Of a DNA stretch of 64,000 nucleotides, positions 7,498-51,061 are shown one piece after another. This DNA comes from Gemmatimonadaceae bacterium (GTDB lineage Bacteria > Gemmatimonadota > Gemmatimonadetes > Gemmatimonadales > Gemmatimonadaceae). The stretch spans positions 1-64,000 of the forward strand of contig JALHNZ010000012.1 in the NCBI GenBank assembly GCA_022843265.1, in the 5' to 3' direction. The first letter of the stretch is position 1. The number at the start of each line of letters is the position of its first letter. The translations under genes were made by a program, and so were the position numbers. The notes under the pieces were generated by a model, which was not told where the DNA came from, made no database searches, and saw nothing but the letters and a program-made list of their open reading frames with translations.

Positions 7498-7524
7498 ACC
7501 ACTGTTCGTTTTCGCATCGTTGAC

Positions 7525-9123
7525 ATGACTGCTCTCACGTTCGACAATCGATTTGTCACCGAGTTACCGGGTGATCCTGAAACGTCGAATCGTCGGCGAC
7601 AGGTGCTCGGCGCATGCTGGAGTGCGGTGGAGCCCACGCCTGTGGCCGAACCCAGGCTGTTGGCGCACGCGCGCGAAGTGGCCGAGTTAGTTGGTCTCAC
7701 GCCGAACGACGTGGCGTTGCCGGAATTTGCGCGAGTATTTGGTGGCAACGCGTTGTACGCCGGCATGCAACCGTACGCCGCGTGTTACGGTGGCCATCAG
7801 TTCGGCAACTGGGCCGGTCAGTTGGGAGACGGACGTGCGATTACACTCGGCGAAGTAGTCAACGCGCGCGGCGAACGGTGGGAGTTGCAACTCAAGGGCG
7901 CAGGCCCCACACCGTATTCGCGCAGTGCCGATGGTCGCGCCGTGCTACGCTCAAGCGTGCGCGAGTTTCTGTGCAGTGAGGCCATGTTTCACCTGGGTGT
8001 GCCAACCACACGTGCACTGAGTCTCGTGGACACCGGTGAACCCGTCGTGCGTGACATGTTTTACGACGGCAACGCCCAGGCCGAACGCGGCGCGATTGTC
8101 TGTCGCGTCGCACCGAGTTTTATCCGCTTCGGCAACTTTGAAATTCTGGCGGCACGTGACGAACGTGCGCTGCTGAACCAGTTGGTCGACTTCACGATCT
8201 CACGTGACTTTGCGCACCTTACGGGCACCGTCGCCGAGCAACGCGCCGCGTGGTTCCGCGAAGTGTGCGAACGTTCGGCGCGCATGGTGGTGGACTGGAT
8301 GCGCGTAGGATTTGTGCACGGCGTGATGAACACCGACAACATGTCAATTCTCGGACTCACCATTGACTACGGTCCGTATGGTTGGCTCGAAGACTTTGAT
8401 CCCAACTGGACACCCAATACCACAGACGCGGCTGGTCGACGGTATCGCTACGGTCAGCAGCCGGCGATTGTGCAGTGGAATCTTGTGCGTTTGGCCGAGG
8501 CGCTGCGTCCGGTGTTTGATACGCCTGAGCCGCTCGAGGCGGGACTTGATGCGTTTCTCGCGGTGTATGACAGCGCGTACGAGCGCATGATGAGTGCGAA
8601 GTTCGGATTTGCTGAGCGTACGGCGAGCGGAGGCAACGTGACACTCGACGACGCCGAGCAACAACTTATCCGCGAAGCATTCGGCCTCATGAACGCGGCG
8701 CAGGCAGACTACACCCTGTTCTTCCGCGCGCTCGGCCACGTGCCCGACATCATTCCGCCTGACGCAACGATCGTGGGTGTGCTCGGCGACGTCTTCTACC
8801 ACGAAGACGTACTCGTCACGCACAACGAACCGTTCATGCAGTGGCTGCGACGGTGGCACGCGCATGTGCTGTCCACCGGCTCGTCGTCGTCGGCCCGTCG
8901 CGCGCGCATGCACCGCGTGAACCCCAAATTCGTGTTGCGAAACTGGATCGCGCAGGAGGCCATCGACCTCGCGGACCAGGGTGACAATACGCGCATTCAC
9001 GAACTGCTTGAGCTGCTGCGCGCTCCCTACGACGAGCAGCCCGGCAACGAGCGTTTCGCCGCCAAACGTCCTGAGTGGGCGCGGCACAAGGCGGGGTGTT
9101 CGATGCTGTCCTGTAGTTCCTAG
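7525..9123 (+). CDS. selO: Protein adenylyltransferase SelO (YdiU family)
   Basis: 532-residue SelO/YdiU pseudokinase. The family transfers AMP from ATP to Ser, Thr or Tyr of target proteins and is linked to oxidative-stress responses. Visible motifs are [20 protein letters not shown] (ATP-binding Lys and Arg region, about 120-140), [10 protein letters not shown] and [13 protein letters not shown] (metal and catalytic loop, about 270-295). The protein ends MLSCSS, so a Cys occupies the place where eukaryotic SelO carries selenocysteine. Length and C-terminus are complete. Confidence 0.95.
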
Positions 9124-31273: not shown

Positions 31274-33010
31274 GTGACCCCCCCTTCAGTCCTTCCGTTT
31301 TCTGCGACGGCCGCCGCGCTCGCTTTGGATGAAGAGCGCGCGAAAGATCTGAACACATTCCGCGTGGCCGAACGCCGGCGCACCTGGAGCACCATTCTTG
31401 TAGCCACGATGCTCATCGTGGGTGTGCAAGTCGGGCTCGTTGATGTGCCCGTGTCGATCATGATTATCGCGTTCGTCGTCTCCGTGTCATGCAATTGGGG
31501 ACTGAGTGCGTTTGCGCTCAACGAACAACGCTACCGCTGGTGGTTCCGCTATCTGTTCGCCGCGTTTGACACGATGCTGATCAGTTTGCTCGTGACCATC
31601 TTTGGCGCGCCGGTGCTCGCCATTCTGTATTTGCTCGCGATCGTACCGTACTCATTCGATCGGGGACGCGCGCTGGGGTTTGTGGTGCTCGCGTGCTCTG
31701 AAGTGGGATTCATTGCCAGCAGCGTGTTGCACGCGCGGCTGTTTCCCGAAAGTACGCCGCCAATGGCGCAGGTTGCACTGGCCGCGATTCTTCTCGCCGT
31801 CGTGTCGCAGCAGATTGTGCCCATTCCCACGAAGCTTATTCGCCGTCTGCGTCGCACACGGGAACGCATGTTTCTGGTGGAGTCGGGTGATCTCACCGCC
31901 CGTGCAGACGCGCGACACACCGACGAACTCGGTTTTCTCGAGCGCAGCTATAACGCCATGCTCGACGAAGTCACGCGGCTCATTGCTTCAGTCCAACAGG
32001 AGAGCGATGAACTGGCCGCCGTAGCGGCGCAGCTTGGTGGTGCGTCGACCGTGTTACAATCGCGCGCGCGCGACGCACACCGCGGTGTGCAGGCGCTGCA
32101 AGACGAACTCGGCGCACAGCGTGTGAGTGTGGCGGAAGGTGCGCGCTCAAGCCGGTCCGCGAGAGAAGCCGCGGTGCTGGCCGTAACGCGCGCTGATCAG
32201 ACCGCACAAGACGCACGCGCCATGGACGTGGCCACCGTGGCCAGTCGCAACGCGATTGAACGCGCCGCGCAAACGCTCGTGCAGGTCGGTGACGGTGTGC
32301 AGGAAGCCGCCACGCAGGTGAGTGCCCTTGTGCCGGCATCGGAACGCGTGGGTGAGTTCGTGACGACAGTATCGCGGATTGCGCGCCAGACAAACTTGCT
32401 GGCGCTGAATGCGGCCATCGAAGCCTCGCGTGCCGGTGAACATGGGCTCGGTTTTGCAGTCGTAGCCGAAGAGATTCGCAAACTCGCCGGTGAAAGTGCT
32501 CGTGCTGCAAAGGCCATTGCGGTCACGGTGCAGGGGGTACGCGAAGAGATTGCGAGCACAGTGGCCACGATGGACGCCACGGCGCGCGAAGTGCACGGTG
32601 TGGGTGGTATTGCCAACGAAGCACGCGGCGCGCTCGATGCGATTCTCGCGGACATCTCACGCATTGCCACGCACGCTGATGACGCGGCGCGTCTTTCCCG
32701 AGCGCAGGCCGACGCGGCCAGCGCCGTGGACTCGGCGTTTCAGAATGTTGACGAACGTGCCGAACGTGCCGTGGCCGATGCACAGCACGCCACAGCCGCC
32801 GTCGTGGCGCAGGGCGGCGCGCTGGATGATCTCGCACGCAGCGCGGCCACGCTGACGGAAACAGCCAATCGTTTGCGACACGCCGTGGCGCGTGTGTCGA
32901 GTGGTGCGTCGTCAAACAAAACAACTCCGATCATGCCGACCGCAGATTCGGCCTCGCGTACGCGTTCGACTACCGCGCCGGTGGCGGGTCGCCGCCCGGT
33001 TGCCGCGTAG
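31274..33010 (+). CDS. Methyl-accepting chemotaxis protein-like transducer
   Basis: 578-residue transducer. The N-terminal half has about six closely spaced hydrophobic helices (residues 35-190) and no large periplasmic domain, so any sensing would be within the membrane or cytoplasmic. A HAMP-like segment ([20 protein letters not shown]) follows. The signalling hairpin tip reads [20 protein letters not shown] with [18 protein letters not shown], the conserved CheA/CheW contact. No che genes lie nearby. The 3' end overlaps the convergent AraC-type gene by 41 bases. GTG start. Confidence 0.88.
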
Positions 33011-33974
33011 GTTCCACCACACGCGACCACATGGGCAGGACAATCAGCGGATGAAAGTGCTGCAGCACATCGAGATGCGGCACGATCAGATCACCTACAA
33101 ACCGCGCGAGCATTCGATCAGCTGTGAACTCGCGCCGAAACTGCACAGCCGTCACGCCGAGCATGGTGTGAATGTGTCGGCCAAAACTCTGTGGCGACGA
33201 GTACTCGAGCGTGTTGGAGACCTGCGTAATGCTCAGTCCGGGGTTCTCGAAAAGCGCAGCCGCACGTACCAGTCGCGCCATGGCGAGATACCGTTTGGGC
33301 GCTGGCAGGCCGGAGCGATAGAAGCGACTCATCAGCGTGCTTGCTGACACGCCCAGTCGTTTGGCAAGCTGACGCACGGTGCCCACTTTCGCAGGCGCGA
33401 TAAAACACGCGTCGAGAAATCGCCGACAATCTTCCGGTGCGGCGCACAGGATGTCGGCGATTTGCAAAATTGCCCGCCGCTCAATGCTGCTGCCACGATG
33501 CGACGTGAACAGCTGTCGCAAATCACGCCACCCGGTGGGATCACGCACGTCGACCAGCGATTGCACGCCGTATTGTCCAAGCGACAGCACCGTGTGCGCC
33601 GATGACGCGCTGCTTTCCGACAACAAGGCCACCGCCGGCACGCCGGGAAACTCGCGCACCATGCGCGCCACCGAAGACGCCGCGCGTGCATTGCAACAGG
33701 CCACCGAGACGATCACGGCCTGCGCCCGACATTCGCGCAGGTCTTGCAACAACTCGTCCATGGTGTCGCGATGCACGGCTACGTAGCAGCCTTCGCCGGC
33801 CGCATCCACCTTGGTGCGCTCGTGCGGCGTGAGCATGGTGACCACGGCCGTGTCGGCCTTGCTGCGCGCGGACGTGACGCGATGCTGCCTGGCCGGACGC
33901 AGGAGTGATGGTGGTGTGATCTTCGAGTCGCGTGTGCTGCGGCGCGGATTGGCGTAGTGAAAATCGTCCGACAT
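32970..33974 (-). CDS. AraC-family regulator with receiver-like N-terminal domain
   Basis: 334-residue regulator. The C-terminal 110 residues are an AraC-type double helix-turn-helix ([20 protein letters not shown], then [20 protein letters not shown] and [14 protein letters not shown]). The first 200 residues alternate strands and helices like a response-regulator fold ([39 protein letters not shown]), without an obvious phospho-acceptor Asp. The protein encoded at 36709-37584 has the same architecture. The stop lies inside the 3' end of the convergent transducer gene. Confidence 0.84.
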
Positions 33975-34160
33975 GATTCACTCGGCGCAGGCGTGAAGTG
34001 GCGAACGTGTGTGCCGACGTGGCATTCGGCACCGCACGTGCAATGAGCGTCGAGAAACACGGTACATCACCTCGTCACGACACCGTCACGTGTGCGGTGC
34101 ACCTGTTCGCGCCGAGCAGCGGAATATTGCCGACGTCCGGGTTTGTTATATTGCGGGAGA

Positions 34161-34590
34161 CCAGTGGGTGGTCGTCGGCCGGACGGTCGCGTCGGGTGTG
34201 CGCAAGTGCATTCGCCGAGGAAAGTCCGGGCTCCACAGGGCAGGTTGCCAGGTAACGCCTGGGCGCACGCGGCGTGAGCTTCGTGTGACGGACAGCGCAA
34301 CAGAAAGTAAACCGCCTCCGCGCAAGCGGCGGTAAGGGTGAAAGGGTGGGGTAAGAGCCCACCGCGGGCGTGGCAACACGTCTGGCACGGCAAACCCCAG
34401 CCGGAGCAAGGCCGAATAAGCGGCGAGAGACGGCCCGTCTCGACCACGGCGTGGCAACACGTCGAGCCGCGGGTAGGCTGCTGGAACGTGCGGGCGACCG
34501 CACGTCGAGAGAAATGACCGTCCGGTGTGTGGCTGGGTATCGCACCACACTGACAGAACCCGGCTTACAGGCCGGCGACTCACCCACTGT
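34161..34590 (+). ncRNA. rnpB: RNase P RNA (bacterial type A)
   Basis: The catalytic RNA that matures tRNA 5' ends. Diagnostic blocks are all present in order: GAGGAAAGTCCGGGCTCCAC, CAGAAAGTAAACCGCC, AAGGGTGAAAGGGTGGGGTA followed by AGAGCCCACCGCG, GGGTAGGCTGCTGGAA, and the 3' ACAGAACCCGGCTTACAG with GCCGGCGACTC. The termini pair as P1: CAGTGGGTG (34162-34170) with CACCCACTG (34581-34589), which sets both ends. Two identical CGTGGCAACACG hairpins with GCAA tetraloops lie inside. TTGCCG (34127-34132) and TATATT (34147-34152) may be its promoter, though the spacing is short. Confidence 0.97.
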
Positions 34591-34621
34591 TTGTTGTGCT
34601 CTCTGGCCCGGATTTTGTGTT

Positions 34622-35584
34622 ATGCGTAGCGGTTTGTTGGCCGTTTTGAGTGTGGTGGTATTGAGTGCCTGCACACGCGGCGTGACGCCGCTGCCGGCGC
34701 CTACTCCGATGCCACCACCGGTGGTAACACCCGCGCCGGCCCCCGCGCCGGTTGTATCGCGCGTTTCGATTGCGACGCGTCATGACACCGCGCGCTACGA
34801 TGTGACCAGCACGGCGCGCATTGTGCGCGACAGCGGCGGGCGTCCGGTTGAAGAGGAAATTATTACGCGTGCGCAGGTCGCATTTGCACTCGAGCGCACC
34901 GGCAGCGCGCGTCCGGGCACGGCGCGAGATCTACGCAGCACGGGCCGCGTTGATGGTTTTACGATCAGTGCGTCGGAGCGGGTGACAGGCGCACGTTCAA
35001 GCGCCATGCAAGGTGCGGCGCAGGGCGCCATGCTCGGTTCGACGGCGGGCGGCCTGTCGCGCGCGCCACTTACCGTACCGTTTGACGCGTCGCTCAATGG
35101 TTTGAACGCCCGTGTCGCGCCGAGGCCGTCGCTGGTGAATGAGTGTGATCGTCAGGAGATGAGCGCGGCGTCACTGGTGCGCGAGTTGTTGCTGCGGTTG
35201 CCGCCGGTGCTTGAAGTGGGCGCGACGTGGAGTGATACGTCGCGCGTGTTCTTGTGTCGCGGTGGTGTGCCGGTGACTGCGCAGACCGTGGCGACGGCGC
35301 ATGTGCGCTCGCTCAGCGCCACGGCCGGCGGTACGCAGGCCGTGGTAGAGCGCGACCTTGTCATTCGCATTGAGGGAGAGCTCGCAACCGCCTGGCGCAC
35401 GGTGGCGATGAGCGGTCGTGGCACCGGCCGGCAGCGTTTTGTGATTGATGCCGAACGCGGGCGCGTGGATTCGCTGCGCAGCGAAAGCGAAACGCGCATT
35501 GATGTGCGGGACTCGGTGCGGCCGGATGCTGGCGAGCAGTCGCTGACGCAGCGTGTGGTGCTGGTGGCGGAGCGGCGGCCGTAA
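34622..35584 (+). CDS. Hypothetical lipoprotein
   Basis: 320-residue predicted lipoprotein beginning 31 bases after RNase P RNA. MRSGLLAVLSVVVLSACTRG has lipobox LSAC. A Pro-rich spacer (PAPTPMPPPVVTPAPAPAP) follows, then a beta-rich body (SIATRHDTARYDVTSTARIV, VERDLVIRIEGELATAWRTV). One Cys pair (NECDRQE, FLCRGG) lies in the body. No domain recognised. The frame is open upstream through rnpB, but ATG 34622 gives the only signal peptide. Confidence 0.78.
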   Translation: MRSGLLAVLSVVVLSACTRGVTPLPAPTPMPPPVVTPAPAPAPVVSRVSIATRHDTARYDVTSTARIVRDSGGRPVEEEIITRAQVAFALERTGSARPGTARDLRSTGRVDGFTISASERVTGARSSAMQGAAQGAMLGSTAGGLSRAPLTVPFDASLNGLNARVAPRPSLVNECDRQEMSAASLVRELLLRLPPVLEVGATWSDTSRVFLCRGGVPVTAQTVATAHVRSLSATAGGTQAVVERDLVIRIEGELATAWRTVAMSGRGTGRQRFVIDAERGRVDSLRSESETRIDVRDSVRPDAGEQSLTQRVVLVAERRP

Positions 35585-35602
35585 CACGCGTGCTGAAAAA
35601 GG

Positions 35603-35625
35603 CAATTGGGCATTTGCCCAATAGC
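35603..35625. repeat. Palindromic repeat, copy 1
   Basis: CAATTGGGCATTTGCCCAATAGC contains ATTGGGCA-TT-TGCCCAAT, with 8-bp arms. It lies just after the lipoprotein stop and 70 bases before the 116-residue ORF. It matches copy 2 at 36400-36422 in 22 of 23 positions. Confidence 0.85.
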
Positions 35626-35695
35626 GCCGAGTGAGAGGGGAGCGGATGTTGGGCACGCCAGAGCTCGCTTCTGTTTACGCTCCTTGAACGCTTCT

Positions 35696-36046
35696 ATGCA
35701 AAATGTTGGTGTAATTCAGAACGGAGTCTCCGTGCTCCGCCGGATCGAGTATTCCGTTTCCGATCCAGAGCCAACAACGGAGACGCTTTTCTTTTTGCGA
35801 GATCTGCGTGGCTTGTCAAATCGGCTGGTAGACTCGACGCTTGAGGAATGGCGCCAGGGATCGATTCGATCGGTACTGTCGCCGCTCGACGTACACCTCG
35901 TTAGTCGCTGCGAAGAGCACGTGTACGAGGATCCCGTTTGGGCGACGGACGAGCAACGTGAGATTGATGCGTTACACCTGAACGAGCTGAAATTATTGCT
36001 CGAGCAATACATCAGGGGCAAAACACTGCCGGTTGAGTGGTGGTGA
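35696..36046 (+). CDS. Hypothetical protein of the palindrome-flanked cassette
   Basis: 116-residue soluble protein that I do not recognise. It is Leu/Glu/Arg-rich with predicted helices (ETLFFLRDLRGLSNRLVDST, DEQREIDALHLNELKLLLEQ) and ends in PVEWW. There is no signal peptide. Start ATG 35696 is used; the frame is open 30 codons upstream but the extra part is Arg/Cys-rich and unlikely. Base use looks more A/T-rich than in flanking genes by eye. The next ORF starts on the last base of its stop (TGATG). Confidence 0.55.
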   Translation: MQNVGVIQNGVSVLRRIEYSVSDPEPTTETLFFLRDLRGLSNRLVDSTLEEWRQGSIRSVLSPLDVHLVSRCEEHVYEDPVWATDEQREIDALHLNELKLLLEQYIRGKTLPVEWW

Positions 36047-36177
36047 TGCCTTTAGCAGAACGTGAGCTGCGGCAACTTTTACATCCGCGCGCAGTACTCG
36101 ACCGCAATGAGCGTTCAGCAAAAGCGGTTTTTCTTGTCGCCGTTTCTCGTAGACACGCTTTCCGCCCTACAGATTAA
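36046..36177 (+). CDS. Small ORF coupled to the 116-residue protein
   Basis: 43 codons from ATG 36046, overlapping the previous stop as TGATG. The product starts MPLAERELRQLLHPRAVLD, continues with a basic/hydrophobic part (AKAVFLVAVSRRHAF) and ends RPTD. No similarity is recognised. The one-base stop/start overlap is the main support for translation. Size and coupling would fit a small accessory or toxin/antidote component, which is only inference. A competing frame (36062-36199) is also open. Confidence 0.35.
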   Translation: MPLAERELRQLLHPRAVLDRNERSAKAVFLVAVSRRHAFRPTD

Positions 36178-36708
36178 CGCCATCGTCCAGCAAGGATAGA
36201 AGAGTCAGAATGCAGGCGCGAGTGCAAACGTCTAGCACAACAGCGTTTCGATTGCTCCCGCCTTCAATGTTAGTCTGCCAAACGACGATCGTCGTATTGC
36301 CGACCATTGAGGTAGACCCTCAGCATTTCTGCATTTGCTAGCACCGATCACCGCGATATGCCACGCGGATGCGCTCTTAGCAGGCGTGCGCGTTCAGGTC
36401 AATTGGGCATATGCCCAATAGCCGTTTCTCGATGACAGAAACACCTTGCGACTCCAACACTGCGCGACGGCGTTCAGCCACACGAATCGATAGTGCGTGA
36501 CGCGGTGCATGAACACCGTTTTCGTCCACTCGAGCACGGAGCGCCTATGTCGCAACGCTGCACACGATGCACCACCACCTACTCCACTGCGGCATGTCTG
36601 TTAGTAAGAATCGTAAGTTCGAACTTGCAATGACGCAATTTAAGAAGCGGCTGTACGAGCGGAGCTGGGCGTTTGCTCAAGTAGGTGCGTGAGCTGTGCG
36701 AAAACGCA
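36178..36708. other. Intergenic stretch without recognised gene
   Basis: No convincing coding frame on either strand. It holds palindrome copy 2 at 36400-36422 and a perfect 14-bp palindrome ACGACGATCGTCGT at 36282-36295. The composition looks less GC-rich than the housekeeping parts. It probably contains the promoter of the regulator gene that follows. Confidence 0.5.
36400..36422. repeat. Palindromic repeat, copy 2
   Basis: CAATTGGGCATATGCCCAATAGC contains the perfect 18-bp palindrome ATTGGGCATATGCCCAAT. It is the near-identical partner of the copy at 35603-35625, 797 bases away, with the two small ORFs between them. No T-run follows, so a terminator role is unlikely; a protein-binding or recombination site is more likely. 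Confidence 0.85.
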
Positions 36709-37584
36709 ATGACTAACACCGCCCATCGCAATCGAACGCCTTTACCCCCTGCTGTGATTGGCGTTGGTGTACAGGGCTCCACGTACATGCAGATCCTGAG
36801 CGCGCTCGACGACCGTTCGTCGTTGCGCTGTGTCCTTACAGGTCCCGAGGCGGTGACTGAGTTGACCCGGACGCCCAACGCGTGCCTCTTAGTCGTGGTG
36901 CCATCCGCGAACGAGAGCTTGCTGTTGGCGGAGTTACTCCGCATTCGAAGGCTGTTTCCCAGCGTTCCGGTTATCGCCCTGTTCGTCAACGACGTCTCGT
37001 CGCATCGCGCCACCCTACAACTTGGCGCGGTCGGAGTGGAAGAGCTCATCGTCGTGCAGCAGCGCGTTTGTCCCGATTCGCTATTGCTGGCCTTGACGCG
37101 TGTGCATGCAACTGGCGTTGCCGTACGGCTTTGGAAGCACTGCAATCTGCGCCTGCCTGAAGCGGCCGTCCCGCTCCTCAAGTGTGCATTGCGGCTGGCA
37201 CACGCGCCACTGACTGCTGTGCAGCTTGCCGCCAACCAAGGATGGCACGAGCGTACACTCCGGAAGTACTGCGTTGAGCATGATCTCCCGAGCCCACAAT
37301 GGATTACGGGTTGGGCACGTCTGCTAATTGCGGGACACTACTTGGAGGATCCGGGACGCACGATTCAAGCAGTGGCGGAAATGCTACGCTTTGCGAGTGC
37401 CAGCGCAATGCGAAACCAACTTCGCCGATATAGCAGCCTCGCGCCCTCGGAGCTGCGAGCTCGTGGCGCGCTTTCCATTCTGACGAACGTGCTTGAGCAG
37501 CAAGTACGGGGACAAATGCCGCCGCGCAGAAATGAGACCTCACAACGACAAGCAACAGGCGTTGACGCAAATGCTGCTCAGTAG
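36709..37584 (+). CDS. AraC-family regulator with receiver-like N-terminal domain (paralogue)
   Basis: 291-residue regulator with the same design as the one at 32970-33974. An alpha/beta N-terminal part contains LRIRRLFPSVPVIALFVNDV and LQLGAVGVEELIVV, which align by eye with [15 protein letters not shown] and [12 protein letters not shown]. It is followed by an AraC-type double helix-turn-helix (LTAVQLAANQGWHERTLRKY; TIQAVAEMLRFASASAMRNQ). The C-terminal tail is longer and polar. ATG 36709 is chosen; ATG 36685 would add 8 residues. It reads toward the Cys-rich gene set that starts 1.5 kb downstream. Confidence 0.75.
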   Translation: MTNTAHRNRTPLPPAVIGVGVQGSTYMQILSALDDRSSLRCVLTGPEAVTELTRTPNACLLVVVPSANESLLLAELLRIRRLFPSVPVIALFVNDVSSHRATLQLGAVGVEELIVVQQRVCPDSLLLALTRVHATGVAVRLWKHCNLRLPEAAVPLLKCALRLAHAPLTAVQLAANQGWHERTLRKYCVEHDLPSPQWITGWARLLIAGHYLEDPGRTIQAVAEMLRFASASAMRNQLRRYSSLAPSELRARGALSILTNVLEQQVRGQMPPRRNETSQRQATGVDANAAQ

Positions 37585-38485
37585 TGGATTGCTGGGTACT
37601 TCGCATGTTATAACGCGATCAGTGTGGATAGCGCCGACCAAAACCTTCCCGCATCTGCTGGCGTGGCACCTACCGGTGATGCGGAACAACTTTTTGTGTG
37701 AACTCAGAGATAGCCTGCGGACAGGTGGTTGCTTACCAGCGTGAGGCGCCAGGACCAGTTGATGGAGCGCACACACGACGATTGGTTTGCTCGCGCATGG
37801 TGCGCCGCTGATTGCACTGCGCGCACGACAGCGCACGGCATATTGTCCCCTGAACGCAAGAATCCACTTCGGTGGCTAATTTCGGCTAGCGATACTTCCC
37901 GGTATGGATTGCCAGACCGGCGGGCCACTCCATCGGATCATTTCTTCTTGAACGCATGGGCGCTGTTGTATGCACTTTGACTCCTGTTAAGCGGCACGTT
38001 TTTCCGAGACGTGTCACAGACTAGTCGCAGGGTGAGATGAGATTGGTATGCAGCTCGGCATCTTTGCTGTGTATCAGCATGGTCTTCCCGCGTAAGCGGC
38101 GCGCCGTGATGACGCTGGTCAGCCCTCTCTCAGCGACTCAGCGTCCGGCGGCGAGTTCGCGCACGGAAGATGCTCGTGTTGAACCAGCGTAAGCACTCTA
38201 GTCTTTTGGGCCGGTTGGCTGCGGCCGACGGCCGAGCAAGTTCTTCTGGGCGCATCGCGCACTCGCTGTACAGCGTAGAGCGGCTATGACCCCTACTGGA
38301 CTGCACGAGTCTAACAAGTACTTCCCGCACCTTCTCCAATCACAGCAACGGATGCTGGCTGTAGGCAGTACCCTATCGGTCGCGAGCATTCTAAACACGT
38401 TTCGCGCGGCGTAGCACACCGAGCCATGCTACCGCGCGCGCTGACGACCACACGTGGTCTGAGGGTGTTCGCGGCGACGAACAAG
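37585..38485. other. About 900 bases without a recognised gene
   Basis: All open frames here are short and of improbable composition. None has a recognised motif or a good ribosome-binding site. I see no tRNA, no transposase remnant and no repeated unit. It may be decayed coding sequence or hold unrecognised small RNA genes. Confidence 0.5.
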
Positions 38486-38887
38486 TCATCCCTGCGGCCC
38501 AACAGACGGCTCAATTTCATCCCATAGCGCCGCGAGTATTGGATCGTCCGGCCTCAGCACTAGCAACCTACAAACTTCTTCCTCGTCTGTGACCTCCTCC
38601 TTCGTCCCATTACCCCAAAGACTTCCCGTCCTCGTGAGCACTTCGTCAGCAGAAGTTTGAGCTGTTGCCGGTTCGCCCGGCAGCAGTTGCGCGAGCGCCG
38701 CCGCCTCCGCAAATGTCGACGGCTCCGATGCGAAGTGCGCAAGGACAAGCGCACGTGGATAAGAAGGCGCGTGCCGAAGAAACGCATCCAGGGCCGCACG
38801 GTTCACGCTCGCGCGAAGGAGACTGAATTCGCCGTCGGTCACCGCATCGGCTGGCGGGGGAGCGTCAGCTTCACCAAGTCCATGCAT
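38486..38887 (-). CDS. Hypothetical acidic protein
   Basis: 133 residues, strongly acidic and Ala/Leu-rich, without signal peptide or membrane helix. Predicted helices include NRAALDAFLRHAPSYPRALV and EEVCRLLVLRPDDPILAALW. I do not recognise a family. It stands alone on the minus strand and is divergent from the thioredoxin-fold gene, 182 bases away. Coding potential is moderate: the frame is intact and amino-acid use is plausible, but no homology supports it. Confidence 0.45.
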   Translation of the reverse strand: MHGLGEADAPPPADAVTDGEFSLLRASVNRAALDAFLRHAPSYPRALVLAHFASEPSTFAEAAALAQLLPGEPATAQTSADEVLTRTGSLWGNGTKEEVTDEEEVCRLLVLRPDDPILAALWDEIEPSVGPQG

Positions 38888-39069
38888 GTTTGCCTCGTTT
38901 AGTTGAAGAGAATGGTGCGCGAGATGGGCCGAATACGTATCGCCGACGGCGTTGAGGTACGCTTTCGCTATTGATCGTGCGCGTCCAAGGCATCACTGTC
39001 TGGTCGATCCCAACTTTGAGTGCATGTGTTGCGTGCGCGGCAGTGTCGTTCCCTCCGAGTCTCTTGTCA

Positions 39070-39606
39070 ATGTTCACAACAACTGAATCCCGGCGCATTC
39101 TAGTGGTAGGAATGATCAGCCTGATCGCGGGCGGTGGCGCTGCGATGGGATGGATCTGGCGTTCCCCGCAGCGAGAGCGTGCACGCGATGAGCGTGCCAT
39201 GCGGGCAGTACTAGGACAACCGGCCTTTCTAGAGACAGATTCGGCCTTTACCGAAGATGGGCGCCGCGTCAGTCTGGTGCAGGAGACGCGCGATGCCATC
39301 GTCGTTGTCGTGGACACGTACTGTCTCGCATGCCGGCTTAACGTGCGTGCATACCACGCCGCACTCGACACAGTGCGCACGCGTGGTCTGAAGATGCGAT
39401 TTCTGTTGAGCAACGATTCTAGCGAGGCTGCTCAGTATGCCCGTTTGCTGCGTGCCCCCGACGCCGTGCTTCGTGTAGATGGCGCAACAATTGATCGGCT
39501 GCGCGTAAGCGCGGTTCCGACCACATTTGCCATCGAACCCGGTGGACGCGTCGGACGTCGTTGGGAGGGCGTCCCACGTTTCGGTGAGCAGCGAGCCGTG
39601 CCGTGA
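39070..39606 (+). CDS. Membrane-anchored thioredoxin-fold protein with CLAC motif
   Basis: 178 residues. One N-terminal helix (RILVVGMISLIAGGGAAMGW) would anchor the protein with the rest outside the cytoplasm. The thioredoxin fold shows the active-site motif CLAC in VVVDTYCLACRLN (about residues 82-85) and the cis-Pro loop VPTTFAIEPGGRV (about 152-164), both needed for thiol-disulfide exchange. The C-terminus is short. It lies 170 bases upstream of a gene for a Cys-rich exported protein and may oxidise or isomerise its disulfides, which is inference. Confidence 0.8.
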   Translation: MFTTTESRRILVVGMISLIAGGGAAMGWIWRSPQRERARDERAMRAVLGQPAFLETDSAFTEDGRRVSLVQETRDAIVVVVDTYCLACRLNVRAYHAALDTVRTRGLKMRFLLSNDSSEAAQYARLLRAPDAVLRVDGATIDRLRVSAVPTTFAIEPGGRVGRRWEGVPRFGEQRAVP

Positions 39607-39747
39607 ATGACCACCTATCACATCAGAAATGTGCGCTGGCCGCGCCGTAGTAACGTCGAGAGGTGCGGCTGCGTTAGCGCATTCCCGAAAACTCGCACTG
39701 CTTCCAGTCCGATCACAGCGGTCTCTACTTCTAACCGGAGAAAAATC

Positions 39748-39780
39748 GTGAAACTACCTTTAACTGGAGTAACTTCGTGA
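39748..39780 (+). CDS. Putative 10-codon leader ORF
   Basis: GTG 39748 to TGA 39780 would encode MKLPLTGVTS. GGAG ends 7 bases before its start. The TGA overlaps the GTG start of the next gene as GTGA, and that gene also has GGAG with a 7-base gap. The two initiation regions (39737-39754 and 39766-39783) are near-identical 18-base repeats with three differences. The arrangement could be a translational-coupling leader or simply a duplicated initiation site. Confidence 0.4.
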   Translation: MKLPLTGVTS

Positions 39781-40235
39781 AACCGATGAAAAGATCGTGG
39801 ATGACCGCGCTGCTCGCTGCACTGTTCGTAGTCGCAGGTGCGACCTCAGTGCTGGCTATGGAGTCTCGCCTGCCAAGGGGAGGCGCGGGGGGCGATGACT
39901 GTGGCGGAGGTGGAGTTGAGCTGGCGGTAAGTGCGACGAATGCGCGCTTCCAGCGTGCCAGCCTGTCGGTTGAGGCACTCGAGGAGGAGATCGAGTGCGA
40001 AGGAGGAGAAGCCCCGGAGGGGGACTTCGGCATTTGCGATGTCTGCGCGTCGTCTATTACGCGGACGAGAAATGGCGCTCAGGTCATCTGCCCGTACAAT
40101 CGTTGCTTTTACATTGGCAGCGGTGCCCCGGGTGGGACGCGTCTGGTGATCTGCGTATATAGATGCCCAAGTGGCAGCGGCTCGGAAGCGGCGCTCTCTT
40201 CGCTGACGACCACCACTTCTACAACCGGCCAGTAG
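39777..40235 (+). CDS. Cys-rich exported protein (NVEALA-like pattern)
   Basis: 152 residues from GTG 39777 (ATG 39786 also possible). The N-terminal signal MKRSWMTALLAALFVVAGAT ends near SVLA. A Gly-rich segment follows, then RASLSVEALEEEIEC. The mature part carries eight Cys, seven of them after the VEAL motif, in patterns CDVC, CPYNRC and CVYRC. The tail is Ser/Thr-rich. The SVEAL-then-Cys layout recalls NVEALA-type peptides of Bacteroidota, but I cannot confirm homology. It is flanked by a thioredoxin-fold gene and two propeller-like genes on the same strand. Confidence 0.72.
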   Translation: MKPMKRSWMTALLAALFVVAGATSVLAMESRLPRGGAGGDDCGGGGVELAVSATNARFQRASLSVEALEEEIECEGGEAPEGDFGICDVCASSITRTRNGAQVICPYNRCFYIGSGAPGGTRLVICVYRCPSGSGSEAALSSLTTTTSTTGQ

Positions 40236-40288
40236 TGTTCCGCGCCGCTGTGATCGGATCGGAACCACAGAATCGAGCAGGCTGGAGA

Positions 40289-41308
40289 ATGCGGCTGCGA
40301 AGGTGGTCACCTCGAGTGCTGGCGCTGCAAACCCTCGTCGCCTTGTGTGCCTGCGAGGATACTGCGGTTGTATTTGTTGCTGAAGGTACACCGAATGGCA
40401 CCGTGATTTGGGAGATGGGTGAAGATCCGCAGCTGGATGCGCGGTTTGAGGTCGGCGTACCGGTCGCGGGAGCGGTATCACCTTCGGGTACGCAGATCGC
40501 CATCCTAGATGCGGTCGCGCCGCACTTACGTTTGCTCGATCGGAACGGTCAACCGCGCGATGCATACCTCGGGGACACATTGACCTCGACGCAGCCGCGT
40601 CCCAGCCTGTCCTCGATCGGGCTGGGCGAAAAGACCGCCCTTGTGGGGGATGCCGCAGCGCGCGCGCTGTTGCTCATAGACTTGACCACACATCACGTAC
40701 AGCTCGCGGACAGCTTAGGCATTCGTCCGTTCGGTGCCTTAGCGTTTACCGATAGCACGTTCGTCGTCTACGGGCCGGATGCCGGCGACGGCGAGAGCGC
40801 GCAGCCCCGTTGGTTTCACTGCGTCTCTTGGTCGACCCGGTCGGGAGAGAGGTCGCGACCGAGGATAAGGAGTAGTGAGGCACTGGCAACGCACTACGAT
40901 AGTGTGCGCACGCAGATGACCGCGAGCCTGAGCAGAGTGGGCGAATCGGCGCTGATGATCCATCGGACCGCCGAAGGCCCTGTTCTAGTGCGTGTCGGCT
41001 GCCTCGACGACAGTGCGAAGGTGGAAAAAGTCGCGGATCTACGATCTTGCGAACCCAGGTCGAAAACTGACGATGCTAGCGCAGTAGTCACCTCTTTCGT
41101 TCTTGAGTCAGGTGTCGCCACCCTCGTACGAGCGCCCCTAGCGGGCACCGAGCGTGCTACAGAATGGACGCATTGCGATGCGGCGGCAACGCGTACACGA
41201 CGGCGGGGAATGTACAAAGCCCTTGCAGCCGATGAACAAACTGTACTCTGGTTGTCAGCCGTGCCGTTCTCAAATGTGCAACTCGTGCGAAACTCCGATC
41301 GACGTTGA
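40289..41308 (+). CDS. Propeller-like lipoprotein of the Cys-rich gene set
   Basis: 339-residue predicted lipoprotein. MRLRRWSPRVLALQTLVALC ends in a lipobox-like LCAC. The body consists of repeated four-strand units (AVSPSGTQIAILDAVAPHLR; LLDRNGQPRDAYLGDTL; ALAFTDSTFVVYGPDAGDGE) as in beta-propellers. Six or more Cys lie in the C-terminal half. ATG 40289 gives the lipoprotein signal. GTG 40235, overlapping the previous stop as TAGTG, is a coupled alternative. Function unknown; it is likely cotranscribed with its neighbours. Confidence 0.7.
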   Translation: MRLRRWSPRVLALQTLVALCACEDTAVVFVAEGTPNGTVIWEMGEDPQLDARFEVGVPVAGAVSPSGTQIAILDAVAPHLRLLDRNGQPRDAYLGDTLTSTQPRPSLSSIGLGEKTALVGDAAARALLLIDLTTHHVQLADSLGIRPFGALAFTDSTFVVYGPDAGDGESAQPRWFHCVSWSTRSGERSRPRIRSSEALATHYDSVRTQMTASLSRVGESALMIHRTAEGPVLVRVGCLDDSAKVEKVADLRSCEPRSKTDDASAVVTSFVLESGVATLVRAPLAGTERATEWTHCDAAATRTRRRGMYKALAADEQTVLWLSAVPFSNVQLVRNSDRR

Positions 41309-41366
41309 GACTCCGTTAAGACTCCGCCGTTGTCGTGGTGCACACAAATTCCCATTTATCCTGTCG

Positions 41367-42509
41367 ATGCTTCTTCGAAGATCTTCTCACGCGTTTGCCT
41401 TCCTAGCTGGAATAAGCGCAGCCGCCACTGCCGTTGAGCCGCTTCTTTCACAGCCACCTGCTGAATGGTCGGTCAACACCAAGCCACTGCTGATCATCCC
41501 CAACGACATTGCAGGCGGTGACGTGTTGGATCGAGTACGTTCTATCACTCGCCGCGCGGACGGGGTCATCGTTGTAGCCAACGGCGGCTCCAAACGAATC
41601 CTGCTCTTCAACGCCAATGGATCGCTGCTTAAGGCGGTCGGCCGTGACGGTAGTGGGCCGGGTGAGTTCCGACAGCTGGCGAGCCTCCGCCTCGCGAAAA
41701 ACGGCGCGATCCACGCCTACGATGGAATCGCACGGGCGGTGCATGTGTTCTCCGGAGACGGCTCTTTTCAGCGGGCGGTGTCTTTGACTTCGGTCAGTGA
41801 GCGCATGCCCTCTGGTCTGAGACCGCTGTACCTCCCGGTCCGCGATGATGTGTTCCTCGCCTTCTCGACGGAACGATTCACCAGCCGCCCGGGATCGGTG
41901 TTCCGACCGATAAGCGTTGTTTATCAGGTCGATGCGAACGGCCCTGTGAGTCTGGGCCGCTACCCATCACTGGAGCAGTTCCAAGGGCGAACGACGGGAG
42001 GTACGGCTCTTGTACCTCTAGGGCGCGATCTTATGGTGGTGGCGTCCGAACAGCACACCTTTATCGGCGACACCGGCAGTGACTCAATCCAAGTATTCAA
42101 CGCCCGAGGCGAGCGGCTGCCTGCAGTTCGCGTACCGACGAGCGCACGTGCGTTGTCTGGAACACAGCGCGACCGCCTTCGTGACAGTGTTGTAAAAATT
42201 GCTGAAGCGTCCAGCCGAGCGACTGCAGAGGACATGCAGCTGGCCCGTGAAGTCCCAATCCCTTTGGTGCGTCCCGCGTTTAGGGAACTGGCCGTAGATG
42301 TGGACGGGCTGCTTTGGATCCAGGAGCACTCTTGGCCGAGCCGATCAAACCGCTGGACAGTGGTTTCGTCTGCCGGTCGCGTTGTCTCCAAAATCAACCT
42401 ACCACTCGGCCTGCGCGTGAAGGAGATCGGCCGTGATTATGTGCTAGGCGTGATGTTTGATGAAGACGGACTGGAATCCATTCATCTTGTACGTCTAGAG
42501 CGGAGATGA
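41367..42509 (+). CDS. Secreted six-bladed beta-propeller-type protein
   Basis: 380 residues with an N-terminal signal (MLLRRSSHAFAFLAGISAAA). The body has NHL/6-bladed propeller features: VNTKPLLIIPNDIAGGDVLD, then RILLFNANGSLLKAVGRDGS followed by GPGEFRQ, the GXXGXGPGEF blade motif, and later VDVDGLLWIQEHSWPSRSNR. The protein at 49871-51061 shares this pattern, including GRRGSGPGEFQQ. ATG 41367 is preferred; the frame is open upstream into the previous gene. A terminator for the opposite strand lies 34 bases downstream. Confidence 0.78.
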   Translation: MLLRRSSHAFAFLAGISAAATAVEPLLSQPPAEWSVNTKPLLIIPNDIAGGDVLDRVRSITRRADGVIVVANGGSKRILLFNANGSLLKAVGRDGSGPGEFRQLASLRLAKNGAIHAYDGIARAVHVFSGDGSFQRAVSLTSVSERMPSGLRPLYLPVRDDVFLAFSTERFTSRPGSVFRPISVVYQVDANGPVSLGRYPSLEQFQGRTTGGTALVPLGRDLMVVASEQHTFIGDTGSDSIQVFNARGERLPAVRVPTSARALSGTQRDRLRDSVVKIAEASSRATAEDMQLAREVPIPLVRPAFRELAVDVDGLLWIQEHSWPSRSNRWTVVSSAGRVVSKINLPLGLRVKEIGRDYVLGVMFDEDGLESIHLVRLERR

Positions 42510-42542
42510 ACAGCACGGCGAACACACCTAACGTGCCAGAGT

Positions 42543-42587
42543 AAAAAAAAGGCCCTCCTCCCGCAAAAAACCGCGAGAGAAGGGCCT
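42543..42587 (-). terminator. Intrinsic terminator of the dnaA-dnaN direction
   Basis: AGGCCCT (42550-42556) pairs with AGGGCCT (42581-42587) and the stem continues imperfectly around an A6 loop. The eight A residues at 42543-42550 give a U-tract on the minus strand, so it ends leftward transcripts coming from dnaN. A near-match DnaA box, TTATCCACC, lies at 42592-42600. Confidence 0.88.
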
Positions 42588-42647
42588 GGCCTTATCCACC
42601 ATGCACAACCGCGCTGGCGGCGCCTTCAGGCGCCCGCACCAGGTCGC

Positions 42648-43760
42648 TTAGTCCATCAAGCGCAGCGGCATCACGAGGCAAAGGTAATCCGCCGGGCTAT
42701 CCCACCCCTGCGGTTCGATCGTGGCCGCACGCTCCGGCGCCTTGAACGTGAGCTTGATCTCGTCCGTGGGCATGAAACGCAAAATCTCGAGCAAGTACGC
42801 GGCGTTAAAGCCAATGTCGAGCGGATCACCGTCGTAGTTGATTGGCAACTCGTCCGCAGCCTCGCCGAGATCTGGCGTTGTGACGGCAAACTTCAGCATA
42901 CCGGCGTTGAACGACAGCTTGATGCGATGCGTCTGATCTGACGCAATCACGCTCATGCGCTTGAGAGCGCCGGCGAGCGCCGCTTTGTCGAGAATGCAGT
43001 GCTTGTCGTTGTCCTTCGGAATGACCTGCTCGTAATTCGGATACGGGCCTTCGATCAAACGCGTGTACACCGCGGTGAACGGCGAACGAAAGCCGAGGTG
43101 GTTGTCGCCGCGCGCGATTTCGAGTTCTTCTTCGGCCGGAAACAACCGACGTACTTGTTCAAGCGCCTTGGGCGGCACAATCAAATCGCTTGGCGGTGCA
43201 CTGCTGCCTGGAATGGGCAGATCCATGCGTGCCAGGCGATGCCCGTTGGTGGCCACCATGCGCATGCGTTCTTCGCGAAGCTCCCACAACACACCGTTCA
43301 GAATCGGACGCGACTCTTCGGTGCTCACGGCAAACGCCGTGTGCGAAATGAGTTGCTGCAACTCACCCGACTTCACACGCCACGCTTCGTTGAACCGTAC
43401 CTGCGGAAACGTGGGGAACTCGTCGCGTGGTAACCCAAGCAACTTGAATCGCGAACGTCCGCATTCAAGCGTGACACGCTGTTCACCCGATGTGGCAATC
43501 TTGACGGGTGCCGGCGGTAACTCGCGCGCGATTTCCGACAACTTGCGCGCCGGAATGGTGATGGCTCCCGCGGCTTCAACATCCGCACTGACTTCCGTGC
43601 TCACGGCAATGTCGAGATCGGTGGCGGACAAGCGAATACCACGGTCGGTTGTTTCGACCAGAAGATTCGCCAGTACGGGAAGCGTGGTTTTGGCGGGCAC
43701 GGCGGCGGTGACCGCCGATAAGCCCTCCAGCAACTTTTCGCGCGAGATCGTGAAGCGCAT
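42648..43760 (-). CDS. dnaN: DNA polymerase III beta sliding clamp
   Basis: 370-residue processivity clamp with three repeated clamp domains. The N-terminus MRFTISREKLLEGLSAVTAA and the C-terminal LCLVMPLRL are canonical. ILNGVLWELREERMRMVATN and VIPKDNDKHC carry conserved central-domain patterns. The clamp-peptide binding pocket residues near the C-terminus (MPLRL) are intact. It lies downstream of dnaA in the same direction, separated by 216 bases that contain origin-like elements. Confidence 0.97.
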   Translation of the reverse strand: MRFTISREKLLEGLSAVTAAVPAKTTLPVLANLLVETTDRGIRLSATDLDIAVSTEVSADVEAAGAITIPARKLSEIARELPPAPVKIATSGEQRVTLECGRSRFKLLGLPRDEFPTFPQVRFNEAWRVKSGELQQLISHTAFAVSTEESRPILNGVLWELREERMRMVATNGHRLARMDLPIPGSSAPPSDLIVPPKALEQVRRLFPAEEELEIARGDNHLGFRSPFTAVYTRLIEGPYPNYEQVIPKDNDKHCILDKAALAGALKRMSVIASDQTHRIKLSFNAGMLKFAVTTPDLGEAADELPINYDGDPLDIGFNAAYLLEILRFMPTDEIKLTFKAPERAATIEPQGWDSPADYLCLVMPLRLMD

Positions 43761-43790
43761 GCCAGACGTTGAAAGAATGGTCAGCCTGCT

Positions 43791-43843
43791 GTTGTTCTTT
43801 AATTAAAGAACAAACTAGTAGTAGCAGTAGAGCATGTGGACTT
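43791..43843 (-). other. Origin-like element: DnaA-box-like site, TAG-triplet run and AT-rich palindrome
   Basis: On the minus strand the order is AAGTCCACA (DnaA-box-like, 43835-43843), TGCT, then CTACTGCTACTACTA (43816-43830), G, and an AT-rich tract with the perfect 22-bp palindrome TTGTTCTTTAATTAAAGAAC-AA (43792-43813). On the plus strand the triplets read TAG TAG TAG CAG TAG. This DnaA-box/triplet/AT-rich order, between dnaA and dnaN, matches the basal unwinding region with DnaA-trios described in B. subtilis. A second site, GAGTCCACA, lies at 43970-43978. Confidence 0.6.
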
Positions 43844-43976
43844 GGGGAGAACGCCCATAACCTACGATAGATGAACGTGATGCGCTACAGCAGCTCATGT
43901 GCGTTCGATGGGGACAGACGGGCTGCGTCCCCGCTCGCCCACAAAGCCAAATGGAAAAACGTGGAAGAGTGTGGAC

Positions 43977-45395
43977 TCACGAGGAGAGCGACCCAGTTGT
44001 CCTCAGGGTTTCCAACATGCTACGCAGGCGTGTCACGCGTTCCGCAAACTCCGGCATCGAAGCCATGTCGTCGGCCACACGATCAAGCGAGTGGATGACG
44101 GTGGAGTGATCGCGCCCGCCAAAGGCATTACCGATTTCGACTAACTGCAGCGCCAGCAGCTCACGGCAGAGGAACATCGCCACCTGGCGTGGCCCCGTGA
44201 GCTGTTTGGTGCGGGTTTTGGAGCGCAGTCCGTCCGGGGTGACACCCCATTCGCGGGCCACGACCTGCTGAATCGTGGCCACCGTGATGCTGGTGGGCGG
44301 TACGTCCGGAAAGTCTGAGGTATTGGCGGAGCTGCGCAGCTTGTCTTTCAGCGCCTCGCGGGCGAGCTCCACGGAGATTTCGCGGTGCTTCAGCGAGGCG
44401 TACGCGAGCAATTTGATGATCGAGCCTTCGAGCTCGCGCACGCTCGATTTCACGTGCTGCGCGATGAACTCAATGACTTCGTCGGGGATCGTGAGCTCAA
44501 GATGGTCGAGGCTCGCTTTCTTCTTCAGGATCGCGATGCGGTGCTCAAGATCCGGCGAATCCACGTTCGCGACCATGCCCCACTCGAACCGCGACACGAG
44601 TCGCGACTCAAGTCCGGGGATCTCTTTTGGCGGCCGATCGGACGTGAGCACGATCTGGCGGCCCGCTTCATAGATCGCGTTGAACGTGTGGAAGAACTCT
44701 TCCTGTGTGGATTCCTTGCCTTTAAGGAACTGCACGTCGTCCACGAGCAGCAGGTCAATTTCGCGGTAGCGACGGCGGAACTCGTGCATCTGGCCGCCCT
44801 GAATGGCGCTCACAAAATCGTTCGTGAACTGCTCGGTGCCCACAAAGGCCAAGCGCAGTGAGGGCGTTTTGCGGACCAGTTCGTGGGCGATCGCCTGCAT
44901 GAGGTGGGTCTTGCCGAGCCCCGTTTCGCCGTAAATGAAGAGCGGGTTGTAGACCTTGCCGGGGGCTTGCGCGGCGGCCTGCGAGGCCGCGGCGGCGACG
45001 TCATTGGACTTGCCGATGACAAACTGCTCGAATGTGTACCTGGGGTTTAGTGGCGCTGATATCGCTGATTTCTGCTGCGATACTGGCGCCAAAGGAGCCG
45101 CTGGCTGCTGGACAAAGATATCCAGCTGGGCCCGCTTCGCCCGCTCTTCCGAGATGCGAAACTGTAGCCGGATGGGGTGTCCCAGGGCGACCGGCGCAAA
45201 GCTCGCCAGCAGCTCGCTGTGCTTGCTTTCGTTCCAATCGGCGGAGAACTGGTCCGGTACCACGACGGTTAGGAGACCGTCCTGGAAGGCCGACGGCTCT
45301 GCCGGTTCAAGCCACGTCCGAAACGTCTGTTCGGGGAGGACCTGTCGCGCGCGCGTGAGCAGGCGCTCCCAGATATCGGACGGGGACAGGGACAT
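43977..45395 (-). CDS. dnaA: Chromosomal replication initiator DnaA
   Basis: 472-residue AAA+ initiator. Domain I (1-90) starts SDIWERLLTRARQVLPEQTF. Walker A GETGLGKTH is at about 154-162, Walker B LLLVDDVQFL near 215, and sensor/box VII motifs follow. Domain IV has the DnaA signature GGRDHSTVIHS near 433-443 that contacts DnaA boxes. It forms ATP-bound filaments that melt the origin. A perfect DnaA box lies in its promoter region, so autoregulation is likely. Confidence 0.98.
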   Translation of the reverse strand: MSLSPSDIWERLLTRARQVLPEQTFRTWLEPAEPSAFQDGLLTVVVPDQFSADWNESKHSELLASFAPVALGHPIRLQFRISEERAKRAQLDIFVQQPAAPLAPVSQQKSAISAPLNPRYTFEQFVIGKSNDVAAAASQAAAQAPGKVYNPLFIYGETGLGKTHLMQAIAHELVRKTPSLRLAFVGTEQFTNDFVSAIQGGQMHEFRRRYREIDLLLVDDVQFLKGKESTQEEFFHTFNAIYEAGRQIVLTSDRPPKEIPGLESRLVSRFEWGMVANVDSPDLEHRIAILKKKASLDHLELTIPDEVIEFIAQHVKSSVRELEGSIIKLLAYASLKHREISVELAREALKDKLRSSANTSDFPDVPPTSITVATIQQVVAREWGVTPDGLRSKTRTKQLTGPRQVAMFLCRELLALQLVEIGNAFGGRDHSTVIHSLDRVADDMASMPEFAERVTRLRSMLETLRTTGSLSS

Positions 45396-45440
45396 GACGG
45401 CGATCGAGGGGTTCGGGCGAAGCGGATGGTTGGGGGAGCG

Positions 45441-45470
45441 AAGCTAGCCCGATGAATGTGGATAAGTCAA
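45441..45470 (-). promoter_or_regulatory. dnaA promoter with embedded DnaA box
   Basis: On the minus strand TTGACT (45465-45470) and TAGCTT (45441-45446) are separated by 18 bases, a plausible sigma-70 promoter 46 bases upstream of dnaA. TTATCCACA (45457-45465), a perfect DnaA box, occupies the spacer and touches the -35 element. DnaA binding there would block its own transcription. Confidence 0.65.
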
Positions 45471-45520
45471 ATCGTGACCGGCTCCTCATCGCGCCCCCTT
45501 CATGCCGCACGTTCAACGGC

Positions 45521-45550
45521 TTGACGCAAGCCCAAGTAAATGGCTATCTT
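45521..45550 (+). promoter_or_regulatory. rpmH promoter
   Basis: TTGACG (45521-45526) and TATCTT (45545-45550) with an 18-base spacer form a sigma-70-type promoter about 55 bases before rpmH. A DnaA-box-like TTATTCACC (45573-45581) and an AT-rich AATATTTTTTA tract (45582-45592) lie between it and the gene. These could form a second part of the origin. Confidence 0.65.
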
Positions 45551-45605
45551 ACGGATCTGTGCCTAGCACCATTTATTCACCAATATTTTTTAGAAAGGCA
45601 AGCAT

Positions 45606-49870: not shown

Positions 49871-51061
49871 CTATTTCGTGAGCGCGAAGTATCCGAGGTG
49901 AACGGCGCCATCGTCGTCTTTCCACGAAAGCGCGATGCGATCCTGCAGCACTTCCACGATGAGTGGCGTGACGGATCGACGGGCGTCAGCTATGCGCGGT
50001 ATTTCAACGCGGCCGAGCAGTGAGCCATCTCGGTCGAGCACGGTCCACCACGCGCTGCGTGCTTCGAGTGGATAGTCTTCAAGCCAGATCCGTCCGGACG
50101 GATCAACTTGCATTTGCAGGAATGCCGGAAGCAAATCAGGTACGGGCTGCATGCGAAACGCTGCGATGCGTTCGTCAACGACGGAGCGCGGCGCGTCCTT
50201 GGGAACGGAAGCTCGCACGCGTCGCTCGAGCAGTTCGTTTGTTACGCGCGTTCGTGGCGCACGCCAGCGAATAACGCGCGTGAGTTTGCCGCTCCCATCG
50301 AGAACGCGTACGCTGGCGTCCTGACTATCGCCGATGTAGATGCGGTCACCCACGACCTCCGTATAAATCGGCGCTTCAAACGCGCTGCTTCGGTACGAAA
50401 GCCACGTGCCAATAGATCGCATCTGACGATCGCTGGCCGAGATTCGGTGGTAGTCGGCAATACGATCGAGAAATCGGGCGCGTTCCTCGGATACTTTGAT
50501 TCGATCATCAACACGCGCGCTTGTGCGGATCAGAATCGAACCGTCGCTAAAGCAGCCCGTTCCCGCTGGTGATCCGTCGGTAGTAATGGTTCGGACAAAC
50601 TTGCCATGCGTGGTGAATACGCTCGCGCGGCGCAAACTGTAGTCGCGGACGATCAGTGAATCACCCGCGGCCTGGCATACGGAGTGTGTCTGCTGAAACT
50701 CGCCCGGTCCGCTTCCGCGTCTGCCGAGCACGTGGAGCAATCGTCCGGCAGCATCAAAAATTTTGACGGCTGAAAAGTCGTTCACAACGATTTGGCCGTC
50801 GCTGAGTCTCAGCGTACGGAGTAATCCATGACGCGGACTGAACTCCGCGCGCTCGTCGTCCTGCAGGCCGCCCAATCGCACCAGCGGCTTCGGAGAAACA
50901 ACGAACGCAACGCGCGACGTCTGGATCGATGCGAGCTCGACTATTTCGACACCCGAGCTGTCGACGCGTGTTTGTGCGCAGGCGTGATGGCGCGGAATGA
51001 GCGAAACGACGCTTGCTGCGAACAGGAGCAGTTGAGTCAGCGCGGACTCTAACGTGATCAT
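49871..51061 (-). CDS. Secreted six-bladed beta-propeller-type protein
   Basis: 396 residues with a hydrophobic N-terminal segment (ALTQLLLFAASVVSLI). Blade motifs include VKIFDAAGRLLHVLGRRGSG followed by PGEFQQ, RASVFTTHGKFVRTITTDGS and VRVLDGSGKLTRVIRWRAP. The family label is 6-bladed beta-propeller; ligand unknown. It resembles the protein at 41367-42509 in blade pattern and in a late LPAFLQMQVDPSGRIWLEDY segment. It converges on mnmE with 37 bases between the stops. Confidence 0.78.
   Translation of the reverse strand: MITLESALTQLLLFAASVVSLIPRHHACAQTRVDSSGVEIVELASIQTSRVAFVVSPKPLVRLGGLQDDERAEFSPRHGLLRTLRLSDGQIVVNDFSAVKIFDAAGRLLHVLGRRGSGPGEFQQTHSVCQAAGDSLIVRDYSLRRASVFTTHGKFVRTITTDGSPAGTGCFSDGSILIRTSARVDDRIKVSEERARFLDRIADYHRISASDRQMRSIGTWLSYRSSAFEAPIYTEVVGDRIYIGDSQDASVRVLDGSGKLTRVIRWRAPRTRVTNELLERRVRASVPKDAPRSVVDERIAAFRMQPVPDLLPAFLQMQVDPSGRIWLEDYPLEARSAWWTVLDRDGSLLGRVEIPRIADARRSVTPLIVEVLQDRIALSWKDDDGAVHLGYFALTK

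Follow-up and report, generated by a model that had tools for sequence, protein, structure and literature searches.

A probable variant of a recurring Gemmatimonadota gene set that combines a thiol oxidoreductase, a disulfide-rich exported peptide and a propeller or outer-membrane partner

Genes for NVEALA peptides of the Bacteroidota have been reported near genes encoding 6-bladed propellers. In the staphylococcal TMcin clusters, TmcD, an enzyme of the DsbA family, oxidises the antimicrobial peptide TMcin (PMC13252029), and the Escherichia coli enterotoxin STII, a Sec-exported peptide that DsbA oxidises, leaves the cell through MacAB-TolC (PMC5985334). We considered a stretch of 64,000 nucleotides of Gemmatimonadaceae bacterium (assembly GCA_022843265.1, contig JALHNZ010000012.1; hereafter the window), in which four genes, P0001 to P0004, encode a thioredoxin-fold protein, a cysteine-rich exported protein, a second exported protein and an exported beta-propeller. 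From sequence comparison we propose, with a probability of about 0.7, that the window contains a variant of a Gemmatimonadota module made up of a regulator, a thiol oxidoreductase, a disulfide-rich exported peptide and a propeller or outer-membrane partner. The gene set is apparently spread throughout the Gemmatimonadota and undescribed until now; in the open-licence literature searched, no report was found of a dedicated oxidoreductase combined with a Cys-rich peptide and a propeller or outer-membrane partner.

The four genes are all plus-strand open reading frames (ORFs) with the coordinates that an earlier, sequence-only reading of the window had assigned to them. P0002 (39777..40235, +), the disulfide-rich candidate of the window, has a GTG start with a ribosome-binding site, an alternative ATG being present at 39786, and carries a Sec signal peptide followed by a Gly-rich stretch, the motif SLSVEAL (SLSVEALEEE) and eight mature cysteines; the exported protein with eight Cys and an SVEAL motif recognised by the earlier reading is thus real, with a single CxxC. 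P0001 (39070..39606, +), located 170 nucleotides upstream on the same strand, was also rightly described as a membrane-anchored CLAC thioredoxin-fold protein, as it has an N-terminal membrane anchor, the CLAC motif and a VPT cis-Pro motif. It is probably a TlpA/ResA/DsbE-like protein, which occupies the position of the DsbA-like enzyme of other modules: its best curated match is DsbE (TIGR00385; E 1e-3, weak and far under the cut-off), its match to PF00578 has an E-value of 0.14, an iterated profile places it among TlpA-like proteins of other genera, and its single-sequence AlphaFold model is of low confidence. P0001 was ruled out as a marker of modules because in other genera most of its relatives are found outside modules, in the conserved rpe-tsaD neighbourhood.

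P0004 (41367..42509, +; ATG start), on the same strand about 1.1 kilobases (kb) downstream of P0002, encodes an exported 6-bladed beta-propeller of the DUF5128 type (PF17170, E 7e-7, 29.1 bits for a gathering score of 22.9), with similarity to NHL structures by phmmer and about 8 family members in its own genome (8 matches at E <= 1e-10). P0003 (40289..41308, +), which ends 58 nucleotides before P0004, is exported, plausibly as a lipoprotein (MRLRRWSPRVLALQTLVALCAC), and may be distantly propeller-like; depending on the start chosen (the other candidates, ATG at 40163 and GTG at 40235, overlap the stop of P0002), it either overlaps P0002 by 73 nucleotides or begins just past its end. No match to P0003 was found in Pfam or NCBIfam, its similarity to the P0004-family profile is marginal (2e-6 by hmmsearch, where the target was one sequence; 20% probability and E 1e-3 by hhalign), and its single-sequence AlphaFold model has a predicted local distance difference test (pLDDT) score of 33. 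The earlier reading therefore stands for the four genes and for P0004 as a propeller, but not for P0003, whose propeller fold is not established. Three further observations concern this propeller family: seven of its genes are arrayed on one strand elsewhere in the host genome (L094, G000:C6:84000-98000), another lies in the window outside the four-gene set (49871-51061, -), and a 760-residue membrane ORF, BlaR1-like by eye (L093, G000:C62, 4284-6566), matches the propeller profile and may be a sensor-propeller fusion.

Using P0004 similarity alone, we collected propeller loci (designated L) and then scanned them for small exported Cys-rich ORFs, the detector being a hand-made rule that demands a signal, >=5 Cys and a ribosome-binding site. 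Peptides were already present in six such loci (L102, L110, L117, L126, L129 and L130) before any DsbA search, and in L117 and L130 a membrane-anchored DsbA-like thioredoxin adjoins the peptide. An alignment of three such DsbA proteins (A1) served as query against the phylum, and the loci around the 40 best usable matches were examined. Among the DsbA genes above 100 bits in these first 40 loci (n = 42), 25 are accompanied on the same strand, at no more than 1 kb, by a Cys-rich exported peptide, and 22 have a propeller within 1.5 kb, by contrast with 0 of 154 similarly sized control genes, from the same and other loci, in either case (Fisher 1e-20 and 7e-18). Twenty additional DsbA matches, with ranks of roughly 60-150, gave a peptide in 15 cases and a propeller in 12, within 1.6 kb. 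Considering all module-type DsbA genes, 44 of 65 have an automatically detected peptide, two more (L147 and L281) gain one by a relaxed scan, and a recognised partner stands beside 53; five GTDB-style families are represented. In a scan of 84,980 species genomes, the module DsbA alignment matched mostly generic DsbA genes of other phyla, which served as a negative control; near these 87 genes one peptide only was detected, at the single Gemmatimonadaceae locus, which itself carries the module. The test fixed beforehand by the sequence-only reading, that a Cys-rich gene should lie beside propeller or thioredoxin genes in other genomes, is thus strongly passed by arrangement, with clean controls, but not by homologues of P0002 itself.

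The 57 module peptides compared are 59-96 residues long and nearly all mutually unlike (55 clusters by shared 3-mers), and those that were scanned matched no precursor family of Pfam or NCBIfam. After residue 24, their number of cysteines is even in 50 (mostly 6 or 8; p = 2e-9, half being expected by chance), and this holds for 48 of the 55 clusters (p = 7e-9); an even number is as expected if all these peptides are disulfide-bonded, and the exported P0002 shares it. In four related copies, the identity of the mature peptides falls to 33-36%, as against about 66% for DsbA and about 62% for the propeller, while the Cys framework is kept. In most close pairs (30 of 36) the peptide gene lies a short way upstream of DsbA; the order DsbA-peptide-propeller, which equals that of the window, is found in L140 and twice in L172; tandem peptides occur in L139 (three) and L192 (two). 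At L110 (G129:C1:3142500-3156000, 4714-8916), a Cys-rich peptide and a propeller are flanked by two identical transposase genes, in the manner of a composite transposon.

Module enzymes have the DsbA/BdbD fold (PF01323, PF13462), with a CPFC/CPYC-type site and a cis-Pro, and their profiles match solved DsbA and BdbD structures; they are membrane-anchored and present as one per peptide module. The A3 alignment of these enzymes also displays, besides the active site, a second invariant Cys pair (C117, C161). The partner is mostly a propeller, and otherwise a carboxypeptidase-regulatory/TonB-plug protein, an outer-membrane barrel or a MacB-type permease; genes for MacB/FtsX-type permeases directly adjoin the module DsbA at L139 (6655-9066), L158 (7921-10545) and L162 (3251-5695). 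According to the A3 profile, the host genome encodes six DsbA genes: C46, C11 and C39 are accompanied by peptides, C2 lies beside propellers, and C5 and C25, which have neither, act as internal controls. At least three additional copies with peptide and DsbA (L144, L280 and L281) are present in the same genome. Elsewhere, decayed DsbA-like frames beside propellers (L114, 7302-7817; L127, 7166-8122) follow remnants of outer-membrane-receptor-like genes, which suggests loss of the module.

In the window, the set extends upstream to a gene overlooked in the first reading, which encodes an AraC/XylS-type helix-turn-helix (HTH) regulator (36685..37584, +; PF12833 HTH_18, E 1.4e-8). Searched by phmmer against 13,103 ORFs, this regulator matched those linked to modules or propellers at L166 (7e-7), L147 (2e-5), L148 (3e-5), L124 (3e-4) and also L156, the sole other match being a genus-conserved paralogue at 32970; an iterated profile recovered additional module-adjoining regulators. 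Regulators of this type are frequent, not universal, among modules, and L172 has a LuxR-type gene. The paralogue (32970-33974, -) is located beside RNase P and is conserved in three congeners.

Regulator and four-gene set lie within a cassette (35575..42649) placed between the gene that follows RNase P (34709-35584) and dnaN (42648-43760, minus), and missing at the equivalent site of three congeners. By blastn of the 30-46 kb part of the window, the congener loci L099, L100 and L101 align on the flanks (34147-34597 and 42649-45564) and not in the interior, and congeners with coverage on both flanks have a gap of about 40-640 bp at the cassette site. The block of about 7 kb from 35.6 to 42.6 kb is an insertion, because three congeners align on both sides of it and have no counterpart inside. 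Codon adaptation is poor across the block; terminal repeats were sought at its ends and none was found, and a search for defence-system families (PADLOC) gave no match.

We call the window a variant because it has the exported even-Cys protein, the thioredoxin fold, the propeller, the regulator, the gene order and the cassette of a module, and departs from the others in the type of its oxidoreductase and in the length of its peptide. Several points weigh against its membership. P0002, with 152 residues, is longer than any of the other module peptides; it has no family match in Pfam or NCBIfam, and a single-sequence search of 395 genomes of the phylum gave no credible homologue, the weak matches being other reading frames or unrelated proteins. 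The window oxidoreductase is TlpA-like, not DsbA-like; no adjacent DsbA-family enzyme was found in the window with the A1 and A3 profiles (the six places matched by A3 in this genome all lie elsewhere), nor was a second TlpA-type module found. The fold of P0003 is unproven, the closest relative of P0004 (L125) is not beside a peptide gene and, in a propeller tree where module-linked members cluster beyond chance (19 changes, for 30 when shuffled), P0004 falls outside their group. As for the linkage itself, the phylum is rich in DsbA-like and propeller genes, peptides were detected by a heuristic rule, and the seeds of the DsbA search were chosen from peptide-bearing loci, the genomes tested later being mostly different ones.

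If the module works as its gene content suggests, the peptide would reach the periplasm through Sec and lose its signal, the module's own oxidoreductase would form or proof-read its disulfides, and the propeller or outer-membrane partner would bind it for display, export or perception. In the window P0002 would then be the substrate, P0001 its redox partner and the propellers its receptors or processing scaffold, as the sequence-only reading had supposed. TlpA/ResA-type proteins usually reduce, and with such an enzyme in the place of DsbA the step may be proof-reading of disulfides, not oxidation. At its widest, and held tentatively, at somewhat less than even odds, the proposal is that of a large undescribed class in Gemmatimonadota of secreted hypervariable mini-proteins with several disulfides, each with its own oxidoreductase, regulator and partner, which would serve competition or kin recognition, the window being a TlpA-type swap.

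What the peptide might do can be read in several ways. It could be a bacteriocin- or defensin-like toxin that is oxidised by the module enzyme and released by an outer-membrane or MacB-type route, the propeller acting as immunity or docking protein. The hypervariable, even-Cys, Sec-exported peptides, sometimes in tandem, the mature part of which diverges faster than its partners, are consistent with this, as are the cassette-like insertion, the transposase-flanked pair of L110, the permeases adjoining three modules and the precedents of TmcD/TMcin (PMC13252029) and STII (PMC5985334); however, most modules have no recognisable immunity, protease or dedicated exporter, and genomes with several modules offer no obvious variety of immunity, so that such a role is possible and rather doubtful. 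A role as pheromone or envelope signal, in which the propeller or an outer-membrane protein binds the peptide and the neighbouring AraC- or LuxR-type regulator receives the feedback, would account for the regulator genes beside many modules and for a peptide diversity that fits strain-specific recognition; as no sensor kinase or anti-sigma pair was seen at the modules and the regulators seem to be cytoplasmic, where the peptide has no obvious way of reaching them, we regard this as unlikely. Less probable again is a small structural or binding subunit, docked on its partner for adhesion or ligand capture and not released: partners are surface or periplasmic binding folds, with propellers outnumbering the other classes, but fast divergence and very many unrelated sequences would be unusual for a structural part. 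Lowest of all we place a chance resemblance in which a horizontally acquired, poorly adapted patch only imitates a module, P0002 being exported but unrelated, a view that could draw on the lack of homologues of P0002, on TlpA instead of DsbA and on the unproven P0003, and that leaves unexplained how a regulator, a thioredoxin fold, an even-Cys exported protein and a propeller came together in known module order within one insertion.

Peptides stand beside about two thirds of the sampled module-type DsbA genes, which come from five families of a single phylum abundant in soil. Since hardly any two peptides resemble each other, homology searches miss a class of this size, and linkage together with the even-cysteine rule makes it findable. 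It would be a source of numerous natural scaffolds rich in disulfides, together with matching folding enzymes, and the role of exported beta-propellers encoded beside small Cys-rich proteins becomes testable.

Taken singly, each step of the proposed mechanism has a precedent (TmcD; STII). The sequence-only reading as a whole is upheld in its recurring gene arrangement, is marginal for its second propeller and is not borne out for a sequence link to NVEALA (PF14055). Like the NVEALA peptides, P0002 is small, exported and Cys-containing, and it has a motif of the VEAL type between the signal and the Cys-rich part; it differs in that PF14055 has no match at E < 1 in P0002, and none in the host genome or in any of the 395 phylum genomes, in a scan where the positive control, Bacteroides ihuae, was matched, and the motif was not seen in the other module peptides read. 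P0002 was rejected as an NVEALA peptide on this ground; no mention of NVEALA was found in the open-licence literature searched. The TMcin clusters likewise encode a dedicated DsbA-family enzyme with a disulfide-containing peptide; this peptide is however a Gram-positive bacteriocin that spans the membrane and has one disulfide, and it comes with a leader protease and an exporter but no propeller or outer-membrane partner (PMC13252029). STII is, like the module peptides, a small Sec-exported peptide, one oxidised by DsbA, and the MacB-type permease genes that adjoin three modules recall its release; it relies on a general DsbA and a general pump, and no sequence relation is claimed. With DsbA and BdbD, finally, the module enzymes share the fold, the CxxC-type site and the cis-Pro, and they are distinguished by their membrane anchor, their occurrence as one per peptide module and their second Cys pair, the window enzyme being TlpA-like.

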